IMG/VR virus record: IMGVR_UViG_3300010233_003506
Coordinates: 1 to 25,931 of that record
From: a virus
DNA: 25,931 nt
Strand: one strand, 5' to 3'
Both the position numbers and the translations under genes were made by a program. Below the pieces are notes generated by a model. That model did not search any database, was not told the DNA's origin, and saw nothing but the letters and a program-made list of their open reading frames with translations. The stretch's first letter is position 1, and each line of letters opens with the position of its first letter. This document shows positions 2,377 to 8,113 of this stretch, in pieces.

Positions 2377-4764
2377 ATGTCTGAAATAAAGTTTCCAGTT
2401 CAAGCTATTTCAGTTGAATCAAACACCTCTTTGCAAGAGACTCCTGTTGTGTCTGATCCGTCTCTTCCTGTGGAGGGAGCCCTTCCACCTTTTCGTCCAT
2501 GGACAGGTGGACAATATGTTGATGGCGTATGGACGGTCTTGCGAACTCAAGCGGATATGTCACAGTATCAGGTTGATTTCTCTACTCTTCTTACGGTCAA
2601 AGATCAGTCTACGCGATTTCTTGAAGACGTTAGACCAGCAACAAGATTTCCGAGACAAAGTCTCGTAGGTCTTGCTGTAAAGGACGTAGCAAACTACGCC
2701 GCGTTCCCAGCTGAAACTGTAATTTTTATTGGAAGTGGAGCAACTTCTGGAACTCTTAGTGATGGTTTTCCATCACCTCCGTATTCAGCAGAGTTTTCGT
2801 TCCAAGCTGGAGTTGACGAAATCTTAACTGGAGAAGTAAGTGGTAACGTTGTTACACTAAACTCTGACTCTGTCTCTGGGTGGTACGACTTTTCATACAA
2901 CTCATATAACTTCGTTTTAGCAACATCTGGCACGCTGAGCGCTAAGTGGGTGCCAATAGGAACTGAAACTATTCGCGATGAACCTTCAACAAACGATAAA
3001 AACTTTTTGCCAAGACCAGAAGACGAATTAGTCGCAGCGTTTACTGGAAATGGTACGCTTACGCTTGATTTTTTGGCTGATGAATACCCGTGGAGAAGAG
3101 ACCTGATTGGTTTAGGAGAAGAAGTTGACGCTGATACTGTGGAATTTATTAACCCAAGTCCAAGCGTCGCTGAATCTCAGACTATCACGGTGGTTGACCA
3201 CAGAGGAATAGAGTTTGATATTTTTGCAGTAGACGTTTCCATCTCAAATCCGACATACTCGTTAGTTGAAAAACAAACCTATGACAATAACACGTTTGCT
3301 CCAGAAGTATCGACAGGTAGAAAAGCCATTACTATTGATGCAAATGGAAATTTGTTTTTTGCTTGGTCACTTATGGGAGTTCTTGTTGCTGACATTTCTG
3401 CGTTTTTATCTGTACTAGATGATTTAGTTGCTTGGTTTCCACTAAACGAAACAAGTGGAGACGACCTTGTCATACAAGATAAGACAAAATACAAAGCTGG
3501 AGCAACCGTTGTTTCGAGTCTTTTACCAGAAAATCGAGTTTGGGAATCAGACTTCACAGGGGTAACAGCTGACTTTGGTTGGCAACTTTGTTTTAACCAA
3601 AAAACTTCAGCTATAACCGTTTCAAAATACAGGGAAATAGAAGATGAAGTTTGTCTTTCATTTTTTGTCAATCCACTTCCTACTCAAAACTCTGGAACTG
3701 GGTTTTCGACTTTCTTGTCTTTCGGTCCTATCAGAGTTGAAATTCAAAACGACACGTCAGCTCCTTCATCAATCAACATTTACTATGAAGATGTCTCTAG
3801 AAACGACATCTTGCTTAATTCAACTCCAATAATTCTTATCGGATCACAAAACAATTTCGTTTCAATAAGAAGATCAGGTACGTCTGTCTGGTTTGGAACG
3901 GGAGACCTGAACAATCCGGTCACCGAACAAGTGGTAAGTGGAAACTTTAGAAGCTTTGACATTAAAGATACAGATTTGACTCTGTCATCCGTCCAACGTC
4001 GTTTCATGGTTTGTGACCTGCGTGTCTGGAACAGTGCGTTGAACACAGATCTTGTAGATCAAGTTCGGTCTCCACGAAGCTCGATACTTGACGTGCCAGA
4101 ACCAACCAGTTTTTTCAACAACCTATCAGGAACTCGACGTTATTTCCTTTCAACACTGTCGTCTAAGCGGGTTGTTCCAGTTGAACTTGGATCCGACAAC
4201 ACAAAACTTAATAATCTGATTAGGGTTCAACGTTACTCAGGTACAGGAGAGTTTGTGGGAGATAGAAGATTCAAGCAAGTAGGTCTTGGAGGAGGACAAG
4301 TCTTACCGTCTCCTTTCAAACTAGGAACACAAGGATTTGACGTCAAAGGAAACGGACTTGCTGTCGTCTCAACCCAAATTGGAAACTTACCAGGATTCAA
4401 CAGAGTTCCAGGTGAAAGCGGCCCTGGAACTGGTTGGAACCAAGAAACTTCTCCAGGACTTATTGTATTGGTTAACCATTCGGTTGGAGGAGATCAACGA
4501 ACTTCAATCGGAGCTCCATCGATCACCAGTACTGCATTAATGTCTCCGTGGCCAAACAACATGGAAGCAACAAATCCAGCACAAGATAGACTTTATGTCA
4601 AAGGTGATGGACACGTGTTTGAAGTTTCATTAGATGGAGACGCTACAGAGTCTGATGATCCTGTTGTTAGTGTTGTGTTAACCATACCGGCAAAAATGGT
4701 CATTGGATCTTCAGGCACGATTTCAGAACTAACTGATGCTGTTTCTTTGTTGACAAGTCAATGA
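2377..4764 (+). CDS. Large LamG-like virion protein
   Basis: A 795-residue protein, the largest complete gene here. Residues about 345-565 look like a concanavalin A-like (LamG/Laminin_G_3) jelly-roll: AWFPLNETSG opens the domain and a CDLRVWNSAL-type strand closes it, matching the usual start and end of such domains. The N-terminal third includes GGQYVDGVWT and a region suggesting a virion-attachment segment. The C-terminal part is beta-rich and Gly/Ser-rich. No signal peptide or membrane segment is evident. It starts 18 nt after the previous stop with no clear Shine-Dalgarno, so coupling from upstream is likely. A tail fibre or carbohydrate-binding decoration protein is inferred; the sugar ligand cannot be guessed. 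Confidence 0.85.
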   Translation: MSEIKFPVQAISVESNTSLQETPVVSDPSLPVEGALPPFRPWTGGQYVDGVWTVLRTQADMSQYQVDFSTLLTVKDQSTRFLEDVRPATRFPRQSLVGLAVKDVANYAAFPAETVIFIGSGATSGTLSDGFPSPPYSAEFSFQAGVDEILTGEVSGNVVTLNSDSVSGWYDFSYNSYNFVLATSGTLSAKWVPIGTETIRDEPSTNDKNFLPRPEDELVAAFTGNGTLTLDFLADEYPWRRDLIGLGEEVDADTVEFINPSPSVAESQTITVVDHRGIEFDIFAVDVSISNPTYSLVEKQTYDNNTFAPEVSTGRKAITIDANGNLFFAWSLMGVLVADISAFLSVLDDLVAWFPLNETSGDDLVIQDKTKYKAGATVVSSLLPENRVWESDFTGVTADFGWQLCFNQKTSAITVSKYREIEDEVCLSFFVNPLPTQNSGTGFSTFLSFGPIRVEIQNDTSAPSSINIYYEDVSRNDILLNSTPIILIGSQNNFVSIRRSGTSVWFGTGDLNNPVTEQVVSGNFRSFDIKDTDLTLSSVQRRFMVCDLRVWNSALNTDLVDQVRSPRSSILDVPEPTSFFNNLSGTRRYFLSTLSSKRVVPVELGSDNTKLNNLIRVQRYSGTGEFVGDRRFKQVGLGGGQVLPSPFKLGTQGFDVKGNGLAVVSTQIGNLPGFNRVPGESGPGTGWNQETSPGLIVLVNHSVGGDQRTSIGAPSITSTALMSPWPNNMEATNPAQDRLYVKGDGHVFEVSLDGDATESDDPVVSVVLTIPAKMVIGSSGTISELTDAVSLLTSQ

Positions 4765-5816: not shown

Positions 5817-6610
5817 GCAACCATATTGGAGATACTCTACACCTAGGACTTAACGTTTCCGTCGGACCTCAGACTCGGTATGTTTGGGAATTTTGGGATG
5901 GTACGATCTTAACAACAATTGAACCCTCTATTTCGAAGGTCATTAACCAAACCGGAAACCTCAGCGTCACTGTCTATGCTGTTGATGCTTACGGTCAGTC
6001 GTCAGTCCCAATAACAATACCTGTAGTTGTTGAACTAAGTCCGATAGTCGGTGAAATTGACATTCCAATCAACGACCGTCCTTTTCCGTATGTTGCATCA
6101 GGAACTATTCCAGCTTCAGACCCAAACGGATTTGCGCTGTCTGTTGTTTGGGGTGGAGATCCAATAATTCAAAACGAGGTAACGTTTACGTCAAACGGTT
6201 CATACGTTATCTCAGGAACAATTGTTAAATCCGGTTTCTTATCAGCAACGTTCGTCAATAGCGCGATGGAAAAGTCTGTAGCGCTACTGGAGTTTAGAGG
6301 TACGACAAACGAAGAACCAACCATTTTCGACGCTCCAGACTCACTCAACGTAAGTGTTGGTATTGGAAACGAACTTTCCGTTTCAGCCACAGCTTTTGAC
6401 CCAGATGGTTTTCCATTGTTCTTTTCATGGGAATTTTGGGATGGTGTTTTAGATCCAGGAGTAAACGACTACGCTGGAAACGGTGTCACGATAAACACAG
6501 TCACGCGTCTGGTTGAACTTGAAACAACCGGCACCAAGATGTTAAACCTCGTAGTTCGTGACAACGCTTTTCACTCCGTAAGCAAGACAATTCCAGTCGT
6601 GCTTTCATAG
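5813..6610 (+). CDS. PKD/Ig-like domain protein
   Basis: A 265-residue protein starting in an ATGA overlap and ending the first plus-strand run. Two segments look like PKD/Ig-like beta-sandwiches sharing the core WEFWDG: one near residues 24-70 (YVWEFWDGT, ending in a VYAVDAYG strand), the other near residues 190-265 (ATAFDPDGFPLFFSWEFWDG, ending LVVRDNAFHS). ASDPNGFALSVVW in between resembles another degenerate copy (about 102-114). PKD-like folds usually mediate protein-protein or protein-glycan contact. With the He_PIG, LamG and FN3 proteins nearby, a virion-surface role is inferred. No enzymatic motif seen. The phage promoter begins directly after its stop. Confidence 0.8.
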   Translation: MSNHIGDTLHLGLNVSVGPQTRYVWEFWDGTILTTIEPSISKVINQTGNLSVTVYAVDAYGQSSVPITIPVVVELSPIVGEIDIPINDRPFPYVASGTIPASDPNGFALSVVWGGDPIIQNEVTFTSNGSYVISGTIVKSGFLSATFVNSAMEKSVALLEFRGTTNEEPTIFDAPDSLNVSVGIGNELSVSATAFDPDGFPLFFSWEFWDGVLDPGVNDYAGNGVTINTVTRLVELETTGTKMLNLVVRDNAFHSVSKTIPVVLS

Positions 6611-6639
6611 TTTACTTTTGTCTGTTCATCTGCTATACT
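6611..6639 (+). promoter_or_regulatory. Phage promoter P1 (sigma70-like)
   Basis: A TTTACT -35 box at 6611-6616, a 17-nt spacer and a TATACT -10 box at 6634-6639. Two nearly identical copies occur at 6957 and 22455; the spacer end (TTCATCTGC or close) is also conserved, which favours a true recurring promoter. Predicted transcription start is near 6646. Confidence 0.85.
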
Positions 6640-6667
6640 CTTACCATGCCTCAAAAACAAAAAGACC

Positions 6668-6681: not shown

Positions 6682-7023
6682 ATGACCCCTCCAGAGCCAG
6701 TCTCGTCCTGCTGCGGGGCGAGGATGCGAGTAGCTTTCAACAGCAAGGTTGCTGGTATTGATGCAACCAACTGGCATGAGTGTGAGAAATGCGGCCAGCC
6801 CTGTGACGCTCGGCAGGAGATGGAGGAGCGGCAAGCACTTACCGTCGCACGGTCCTTTAACAAAGATCAGATGTGTCATTGTGCGCTAGAATGGTTTGGT
6901 TGCTGCTTAGTCGTCGAAACTCCTGAGCGTTTGACCAAAAGTGTCCAGTTAATTTGTTTACTTTTTGATGTTCATCTGCTATACTCTTATTACGACGAAC
7001 AACTAACCAAACGGAGACGATAA
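6682..7023 (+). CDS. Small zinc-ribbon protein with long tail
   Basis: The chosen start gives 113 residues. The N-terminal 45 residues form a typical phage zinc-ribbon: SSCCGARMRV then HECEKCGQPCD, giving CC and CxxCxxxC ligand sets. Related small phage proteins usually end soon after this ribbon. Here the frame stays open for about 70 more residues with no recognisable domain, and its last 20 or so residues are encoded across promoter P2. The stop TAA overlaps the next ATG (TAATG). The tail could be real, or could be readthrough after loss of an earlier stop. Zinc binding is inferred; function unknown. Confidence 0.65.
   Translation: MTPPEPVSSCCGARMRVAFNSKVAGIDATNWHECEKCGQPCDARQEMEERQALTVARSFNKDQMCHCALEWFGCCLVVETPERLTKSVQLICLLFDVHLLYSYYDEQLTKRRR
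6957..6985 (+). promoter_or_regulatory. Phage promoter P2 (sigma70-like)
   Basis: TTTACT at 6957-6962, a 17-nt spacer and TATACT at 6980-6985. It lies inside the 3' end of the zinc-ribbon gene. Predicted start near 6992 leaves a leader of about 31 nt with a GGAG Shine-Dalgarno at 7013-7016 before the ATG at 7023. Confidence 0.85.
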
Positions 7024-7646
7024 TGGCACTCAAATCAATCACAGCGCAAGTTGTTGCAAAACCCGCGAACAAGAAAGAAGCTGCTCCGGAAACTACGGTC
7101 AAAGGTAACGCGATTTCACGGTATGTCAAGGCGTACGTTGCCTTGAAGGACGCAAAGGCCGTTGTGGATGAACTCCGTCCTTTCGTTCTGAAAGATGCGT
7201 TGAAGTTCATGTTCAACCACAACTCATCCAACCCAAAGAATCCGGCGTCCACAGTCAAGGTTGGAGACGCTGAAGAAGTTGTGCGTGTTTCTTTCCAAAA
7301 CAAATATAGTGTCGCCGATGCTGAGTCCGTTGACTCTGTGTTCTCGGAGTTTGGCAAGGACATCAACACTTACGCGCAAGAAACCATCAAGGTTGCATTC
7401 GACAGCAAGGTGTTCCTTGACGCGGAAGGAAACACGCGTCCTGAAGTTTATGAAGCATTCCGAACGGCATGTGAAGCTGTGGCGACTAAGATGAAAGTTG
7501 CTAACCCGCTGAGCAGCAAAGTGGTGGTGTTGCCTAAGCCCAACTTCCACGAAGACCGTTGGACAGATTTCACGGCCGAGCAAAACGCCCGCTTGACGGA
7601 AGTTCTGCCGAACACCGTGACCATCACTCCGCTGAAGAGTGAATAG
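7023..7646 (+). CDS. Unknown, probably highly expressed phage protein
   Basis: A 207-residue soluble protein with its own promoter (P2), a GGAG Shine-Dalgarno 6 nt upstream and a hairpin terminator just after the stop. The N-terminus is Lys/Ala-rich (AKPANKKEAAPE); the body is predicted mostly helical (ISRYVKAYVALKDAKAVVDELRPFVLKDALKFMF), with a short beta region around VVRVSFQNKYSV. Codon choice (aag, cgt, ctg, gcg) is visibly different from the neighbouring fibre genes and resembles the gene at 21951, as expected for abundant products. I do not recognise the family. It may be an abundant early or middle protein. Not a membrane protein. Confidence 0.85.
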   Translation: MALKSITAQVVAKPANKKEAAPETTVKGNAISRYVKAYVALKDAKAVVDELRPFVLKDALKFMFNHNSSNPKNPASTVKVGDAEEVVRVSFQNKYSVADAESVDSVFSEFGKDINTYAQETIKVAFDSKVFLDAEGNTRPEVYEAFRTACEAVATKMKVANPLSSKVVVLPKPNFHEDRWTDFTAEQNARLTEVLPNTVTITPLKSE

Positions 7647-7653
7647 TTCGTCG

Positions 7654-7684
7654 AGCGCACGGTCAATTCGGACCGTGCGCTTTG
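7654..7684 (+). terminator. Hairpin terminator T1
   Basis: GCGCACGGTC (7655-7664) pairs perfectly with GACCGTGCGC (7671-7680) around a 6-nt loop; an A-T pair extends the base. Only a short TTT follows, so termination may be partial and let transcription enter the structured region downstream. Confidence 0.75.
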
Positions 7685-7692
7685 ACGGTGAT

Positions 7693-7804
7693 AATTTCGA
7701 ACAATCGTTGGTTCACCAGTGATGCGAGTCATGTGAACATCTGGTCCGGGAACTCGCGGAGTCCTCCCAACCCGGGAGAATAAATGAGGACCTAGGCATC
7801 ACAA
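7693..7804 (+). ncRNA. Tandem pseudoknot RNA, copy A
   Basis: First of two direct copies sharing about 70% identity, flanked by AATTTCG at 7693 and 7805. Visible pairings are S1 GTTCAC (7711-7716) with GTGAAC (7733-7738); S2 GTGATGC (7719-7725) with GCATCAC (7796-7802); S3 CCGGG (7746-7750) with CCCGG (7771-7775); and S4 GTCCTC (7761-7766) with GAGGAC (7786-7791). S1 crosses S2, and S3 crosses S4, so the unit is a double pseudoknot. Conserved unpaired blocks include CATCTGG, GGAGTC and GACCTAGG. It lies after terminator T1 and before 8114. Not a class I recognise; it could be a cis-regulatory leader or a separate RNA. A wobble pair in the helix flanking S1 fits the plus strand better. Confidence 0.7.
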
Positions 7805-7911
7805 AATTTCGGACATCCGTGGGTTCACCACGTGACGCTGCAAGTGAACATCTGGCCGGCAAGCCGTGGAGTCGCCCCTTGCCGGGAATAACTGGCGACC
7901 TAGGCGTCACA
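7805..7911 (+). ncRNA. Tandem pseudoknot RNA, copy B
   Basis: Second copy, with the same order of elements. S1 is GTTCAC (7823-7828) with GTGAAC (7844-7849). S2 is GTGACGC (7832-7838) with GCGTCAC (7904-7910). S3 is CCGGCAAG (7856-7863) with CTTGCCGG (7878-7885). S4 is GTCGCC (7871-7876) with GGCGAC (7894-7899). S2, S3 and S4 differ in sequence from copy A yet stay fully paired, i.e. compensatory changes. Here S1 also sits in the loop of a CGTGG/CCACG hairpin (7818-7832), so S1 pairing would be a loop-to-downstream pseudoknot. AATTTCG recurs at 7912. Confidence 0.7.
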
Positions 7912-8110
7912 AATTTCGAAAACCGTCACCACGGTGGTGTGAGTTCTCGGGTGAGAGATCCGCGAGGACCAGTATGGATTCACACCGCCCACGTTTTCAG
8001 TGGAAAGCGACAGGCGAGACAGCGTCACAGAGTAGGACCTACCGTAAGTAGGGACCGAAACTTTAACGAGTGCTCGCTGGTGAGACGAGACCAGCACTCC
8101 ACTGGATGAA
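7912..8110 (+). ncRNA. Hairpin-rich structured segment, possible third module
   Basis: This opens with the same AATTTCG boundary but then diverges from copies A and B. Visible helices: ACCGT/ACGGT (7922-7935); a long arm with GGTGTGA (7936-7942) pairing TCACACC (7980-7986), enclosing GTTCTCG (7943-7949) with CGAGGAC (7963-7969, one G-U pair); CCAC/GTGG (7989-8003); CCTAC-CGTAA-GTAGG (8038-8052); and AGTG...CTGGT/ACCAG...CACT (8069-8098). No credible protein fits. It directly precedes the ATG at 8114, so it may be a leader of the 8114-8538 genes or the 3' part of one RNA of about 410 nt. Confidence 0.5.
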
Positions 8111-8113
8111 TTT

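Follow-up and report, generated by a model that had tools for sequence, protein, structure and literature searches.

The window, that is, the whole 25,931-nt stretch of DNA analyzed here, comprises 25.9 kb of a 48.5-kb virus record (IMGVR_UViG_3300010233_003506) and is assigned to a tailed phage because it encodes portal, GroES-like, DNA helicase, and SbcD-like proteins. Along the window, an ORF of 207 amino acids is followed by a strong hairpin, two adjacent copies of a structured unit (U1 and U2), about 200 nt of structured non-coding sequence, and two small ORFs (Table 1). The small ORFs neighboring the units had no match in Pfam, PHROG, or PADLOC, and protein-based searches returned no relatives of the neighboring genes. 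A scan places, as weak evidence, a promoter-like site at 6957–6985, upstream of the 207-aa ORF; two stretches that resemble promoters and are nearly identical (TTTACTTTT...GTTCATCTGCTATACTCTTA), at 6608–6641 and 6954–6990, precede two successive ORFs. The strong hairpin was not called in a terminator scan. The small hairpin before U1 has a counterpart before U2 (CGG-ACAT-CCG, 7810–7819) that differs on both sides, and such hairpins are not general across the relatives described below. The structured stretch downstream of U2 has no match in Rfam, and nothing similar to 7913–8113 was present among the fetched loci; it may belong to the same transcript as the units.

Table 1 Features of the tandem locus in window coordinates, with the evidence for each
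Feature	Position	Strand	Evidence
Strong hairpin that follows the 207-aa ORF and closely precedes the tandem units; resembles a terminator, T tail weak	7651..7685	+	Fold z -6.15 for 7640-7695
Small hairpin CGA-ACAA-TCG before U1	7698..7707	+	Direct reading
U1, complete family member, hammerhead-less form	7705..7803	+	Model R1 match 7705-7805, 74.8 bits, E 6.6e-17
U1 half A	7705..7750	+	Covariation in relatives
U1 junction AAC between halves; hammerhead site in most relatives	7751..7753	+	Comparison with relatives
U1 half B	7754..7803	+	Covariation in relatives
U1 S1	7711-7716/7733-7738	+	
U1 S2	7719-7725/7796-7802	+	
U1 S3	7746-7750/7771-7775	+	
U1 S4	7761-7766/7786-7791	+	
Tertiary pair U7709-A7784 in U1 (G7821-C7892 in U2)	7709..7784	+	G-C/U-A coupling in relatives
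U2, second complete member, hammerhead-less form	7817..7911	+	Model R1 match 7817-7913, 75.9 bits, E 3.4e-17
U2 half A	7817..7863	+	Covariation in relatives
U2 half B, directly after S3, without extra junction	7864..7911	+	Covariation in relatives
U2 S1	7823-7828/7844-7849	+	
U2 S2	7832-7838/7904-7910	+	
U2 S3	7856-7863/7878-7885	+	
U2 S4	7871-7876/7894-7899	+	
Structured non-coding stretch, U2 to next ORF; unrelated to the units	7912..8112	+	Fold of 7916-8112, z -2.83

Both copies can be read directly in the window with the four stems drawn in the initial annotation, S1 crossing S2 and S3 crossing S4, and S2, S3, and S4 have indeed changed on both strands between them. S1 is the same in U1 and U2, yet it covaries in relatives. 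Half A of U1 consists of TCGTTGG, S1 with the 5′ strand of S2 in its loop, CATCTGG, and the 5′ strand of S3, and half B of TCGCGGA, S4 with the 3′ strand of S3 in its loop, GAATAAA, CCTAG, and the 3′ strand of S2. The blocks that had been taken as unpaired are so only in part: S4 has its fixed ends in the GTC within GGAGTC and the GAC within GACCTAGG, and the S2 strand begins at the final G of CCTAGG. Two features were absent from the earlier reading, namely the tertiary pair, which is also a double change between U1 and U2, and the identity, within each unit, of the base preceding CGYGG (T7705/T7754 in U1, C7817/C7864 in U2). Single-strand folding found nothing unusual in U1 and U2 (z of -0.26 and -0.95), a method that cannot draw pseudoknots, and the evidence for the fold therefore has to be comparative.

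Such evidence comes from a family of phage non-coding RNAs of about 100 nt, of which U1 and U2 are two members. By blastn, Microcystis phage Mwe-JY26 (E 6e-6 for U2) and two Arthrobacter phages matched in unannotated DNA. A pattern derived from the shared 3′ part returned 99 stretches, mostly true members, and others came from two additional patterns and a scan of bacterial genomes; an earlier pattern for viral sequences had yielded only chance matches in coding DNA, and the plasmids searched held no members. After removal of duplicates and chance matches, 136 distinct members besides the window were analyzed, so that the family counts at least that many beyond the window, in phage contigs, a few MAGs, and named phages of Mycobacterium, Arthrobacter, Microcystis, Enterobacter, and Pectobacterium. 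A covariance model built with the window sequences left out (model R1) recovers both U1 and U2 and has no other convincing match in the rest of the virus record.

Covariation of the stems among these homologues is pronounced. In a sequence-only MAFFT alignment of 97 members, the pairs of S1, S2, S3, and the variable part of S4 have the highest mutual information of all column pairs. Among 34 divergent relatives, aligned without the window, 97.6% of 884 cells are paired, with both sides changed in 22 of the 26 pairs and 242 cells changed on both sides; sliding the partners by one to three columns lowers pairing to 35–48%. The tertiary coupling G4-C74 (G-C or U-A) is paired in 100% of alignment A1, with 19 joint changes on a rough tree. 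The second and third search patterns fixed parts of half B, a bias bearing on S4; when a search fixed only half A and left half B free, 33 distinct S4 sequences were still recovered, and 97.1% of their pairs were formed, vs. 68.6% after re-dealing. A helix of CTGG with CTAG between the two conserved linkers was rejected for lack of covariation at its variable base. Selection on the double-pseudoknot fold, proposed from the two copies, is thus strongly supported by covariation in relatives. Equally, the class that the initial annotation did not recognise has no match in Rfam 15, for the window or for the region; the loci of Mwe-JY26 and the Arthrobacter phages (L015–L017) match tRNAs only. No earlier description turned up in the open-access literature searched, and set against Rfam 15 and these papers the class is apparently new.

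The general order is NCGYGG-S1a-S2a-S1b-CATCTGG-S3a in half A and NCGYGG-S4a-S3b-GGAATAAC-S4b-CCTAGG-S2b in half B. We read this topology as two equivalent halves, in which the loop strand of each hairpin (S1 or S4) would pair with the tail of the other half. Two observations support the reading. The order of the halves varies: half B precedes half A, joined by a hairpin, in Enterobacter phage SDFMU_EhYP, Pectobacterium phages, and about ten metagenomic phages, a natural swap of half order that retains the same fold. Moreover, every half A found was accompanied by half B, except for chance matches in coding DNA and one truncated contig.

In about three-quarters of the relatives a type I hammerhead motif lies exactly between the halves. 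The insert, which follows S3a and precedes CGYGG of half B, reads CUGANGA, stem II, GAAA, stem III, and NUH, and stem I is formed by NCGY of half B, mostly as ACGC/GCGT, ACGG/CCGT, GCGG/CCGC, or GCGC/GCGC. CUGANGA occurs in 91 of 94 parsed inserts, the cleavage position is C, A, or U and never G, and stems II and III are represented by 77 and 89 different sequences, respectively. Half B is preceded by the hammerhead in both half orders. By its sequence, the motif is predicted to cleave exactly 5′ of NCGY. Rfam hammerhead models match the three examples tested (E 6.4e-5, 0.0011, and 0.022), all below gathering scores, which is why larger scans list no hammerhead. Some inserts depart from the canonical form: in L059, L147, and L144 both bases of an active-site pair have changed together, from C3-G8 to U3-A8, and many others have A·A or U·U at 10.1–11.1, departing from hammerhead rules. 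The inserts of L144 and L157 are degenerate, the latter retaining stem I and a GUA site without CUGANGA, and the L153 junction has CUGAACGA; the L157 and L153 junctions could represent decayed hammerheads or, alternatively, a different ribozyme.

The window copies hold no CUGANGA...GAAA...NUH core (their junctions being AAC and none) and have no Rfam match at E ≤ 2, and, lacking the insert, they are not expected to undergo hammerhead cleavage. The suggestion of a self-cleaving element in the initial annotation therefore came near the mark for the family, in which the motif sits in the S3 loop of most relatives, and missed for the window itself. At least 22 gains or losses of the hammerhead on a rough tree show that the RNA can do without the nick.

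The base before CGYGG in half A (N0) equals that in half B (N46) in 129 of 132 members, against a chance expectation of 0.35–0.42, and one of the three exceptions (L175) is probably mis-parsed. Each position changed about 40 times on the rough tree, 39 times on the same branch as the other. The coupling is not complementary, and a third partner was found neither among the core columns nor at fixed offsets in the flanks. Partner 4–6-mers within 200 nt show a modest excess in hammerhead-bearing members and no clear excess in hammerhead-less ones; U1 and U2 are followed downstream by two 6-mer partners, which are not general. Re-ligation of the hammerhead to the 5′ arm as the cause of the identity is contradicted by hammerhead-less (32 of 32 identical) and permuted (12 of 12) members. 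Candidate explanations are a shared trans partner or a symmetric contact. We tentatively propose, at somewhat under an even chance, a new class of pseudo-two-fold symmetric, domain-swapped double pseudoknots in which a rule other than intramolecular pairing keeps the first base of both NCGYGG arms identical. If true, the two arms would either contact one common trans partner or touch each other across the pseudo-axis, and the built-in hammerhead would make the RNA a two-piece molecule in most phages. Identity coupling of this kind is covariation that pair-based RNA tests overlook, and it specifically predicts a shared partner.

Members are associated with tRNA genes. A same-strand tRNA lies within 100 nt of 23 of 93 hammerhead-bearing and 9 of 32 other members, where about two would be expected in each set; relative to random positions in the same loci, the enrichment is approximately 10-fold for the hammerhead form and 4-fold for the other form. 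All 132 tRNAs counted within 600 nt are on the strand of the member. In several arrays the unit fills the gap between two tRNA genes, with 0–3 nt on each side, and in one locus (L225) it starts directly after an encoded CCA. No tRNA lies within 100 nt of about three-quarters of members, including the window copies, which have no tRNA neighbors, and other settings are between terminase and portal, between capsid and tail, or between unknown genes. There is no fixed neighboring gene, downstream genes being portal, terminase, helicase, tRNA, or unknown. Model searches of the other loci gave no second case of two complete copies, as both matches in L124 are pieces of one hammerhead-bearing unit, so that this genome is so far the only one with a tandem arrangement. 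Three unannotated Ser-tRNA-like genes in Mwe-JY26 (L015, 2797–2893, 2896–2993, and 3099–3197; anticodons read as GCU, CGA, and GGA) were missed by ARAGORN and Rfam, and the RNA unit lies between two of them. In the Arthrobacter phages (L016), the unit lies between two unannotated sequences that resemble tRNAs (2838–2902 and 3051–3108) but have an odd anticodon loop or lack the D arm.

The family resembles several known systems in part. Type I hammerheads (RF00163, RF02275; PMC3088659) share the core and the three stems that most relatives carry between the halves, whereas the window copies are without the motif, stem I is only about 4 bp here, and the surrounding conserved core belongs to no hammerhead. 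A hammerhead has been described in the genome of phage PaP3 (Perreault et al. 2011, PMC3088659), in which a model search gave no match to the family core. HDV-like theta ribozymes of gut phages (PMC10879173) are likewise small, pseudoknotted, and located near viral tRNA genes of tailed phages; HDV-like ribozymes, however, form a nested double pseudoknot whose P3 hairpin lies between the 5′ strand of P2 and the 3′ strand of P1, whereas the order here is S1a-S2a-S1b, and since only about 5–8 nt separate S2a from S1b in most members, the unit has no P3 hairpin. No HDV-like Rfam model matched. GOLLD and ROOL (PMC12286853) are also structured, pseudoknot-rich RNAs of phages and prophages near tRNA islands, although they measure several hundred nucleotides and the unit about 100, and no Rfam family matches it. 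Type III toxin–antitoxin RNAs (ToxI) consist of repeated pseudoknotted units, reminiscent of the NCGYGG half-units, but here each half pairs with the other and does not form a pseudoknot of its own, and no toxin gene lies next to the window units. The stable RNAs C and D of phage T4 are a further parallel as non-tRNA RNAs within a phage tRNA cluster; model R1 has no match in that cluster (L202). T4 RNAs C and D, PaP3, phiKDA1, and Entb_48 were accordingly rejected as relatives, none having a model match. The family, a conserved class found among tRNA genes in phages whose hosts come from several bacterial phyla, joins the few phage RNAs of the kind of GOLLD and ROOL.

The placement against tRNA genes or among head and packaging genes favors a discrete trans-acting RNA over a switch. 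Most likely, the RNA is a stable, trans-acting molecule cut from longer transcripts, and to the whole of this explanation, a processed RNA with NCGYGG contact arms, we give about an even chance. In tRNA arrays, tRNA-processing nucleases could release it on both sides. In most relatives, the hammerhead would also cut between the halves, leaving 5′-OH-NCGYGG at the start of half B, while S2 and S3 would hold the nicked halves together; the motif would then be a module inside another RNA, probably a maturation nick. The two equivalent arms may be contact sites for a host or phage nuclease, a ribosome, or an RNA, and a role as decoy or adaptor during infection is a guess. A protein platform or an abundant RNA, both raised in the initial annotation, are possible. 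Isolated phages (Gaia, Constance, and Karkharias) and Mycobacterium abscessus prophages carry the RNA in directly testable systems.

An unlikely alternative is a cis-acting element that cuts or marks polycistronic transcripts, with the folded 5′-OH RNA shielding the downstream tRNA or mRNA. Hammerheads in most members, sites directly 3′ of tRNA genes or between head and packaging genes, and two cases following terminator-like hairpins fit this explanation, for which theta ribozymes near phage tRNAs (PMC10879173) provide a precedent. However, the core is fully conserved in about 30 hammerhead-less members, the members abut their neighbors as closely on the 5′ side as on the 3′ side, and a mere shield would not need two equivalent NCGYGG arms with identical first bases.

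The core could itself be a self-cleaving or ligating ribozyme acting 5′ of the NCGYGG arms, the hammerhead duplicating or replacing one of the cuts. A compact double pseudoknot is a fold typical of small ribozymes, the arms are equivalent, the predicted hammerhead cut falls exactly 5′ of one of them, and the other sometimes starts directly at a tRNA 3′ end. We nevertheless regard catalysis by the core as improbable, as it shows no similarity to a known ribozyme core, it would render the hammerhead redundant, and the invariant bases may reflect binding.

More doubtful still is a selfish module of RNA or DNA, mobile between hairpin loops and the gaps between genes. The contexts are scattered, the Pectobacterium copy is flanked by an 8-bp direct repeat (ACAAATTA), and the hairpin loop filled by the unit in SDFMU_EhYP contains an unrelated 41-nt sequence in phiKDA1 and Entb_48, but no transposase or other mobility gene was noted, flanking repeats are not general, loci outside the window have one copy each, and the fold has undergone long-term compensatory evolution. 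The least probable explanation is a ligand-gated ribozyme or riboswitch-like control element: conserved non-helical bases and a hammerhead joined to the fold in most members would suit it, but the cooperative sensing that had been suggested from the tandem copies is opposed by a changing gene neighborhood with no consistent downstream gene, placement in tRNA arrays, the existence of hammerhead-less members, and tandem copies in this genome only.

The stable trans-acting RNA remains our preferred reading. The hairpin arms of the SDFMU_EhYP site recur in phiKDA1 and Entb_48 (L132, 625–810, and L131) around the unrelated loop, with a structured-looking stretch downstream, and this loop is possibly another RNA element at the same site.
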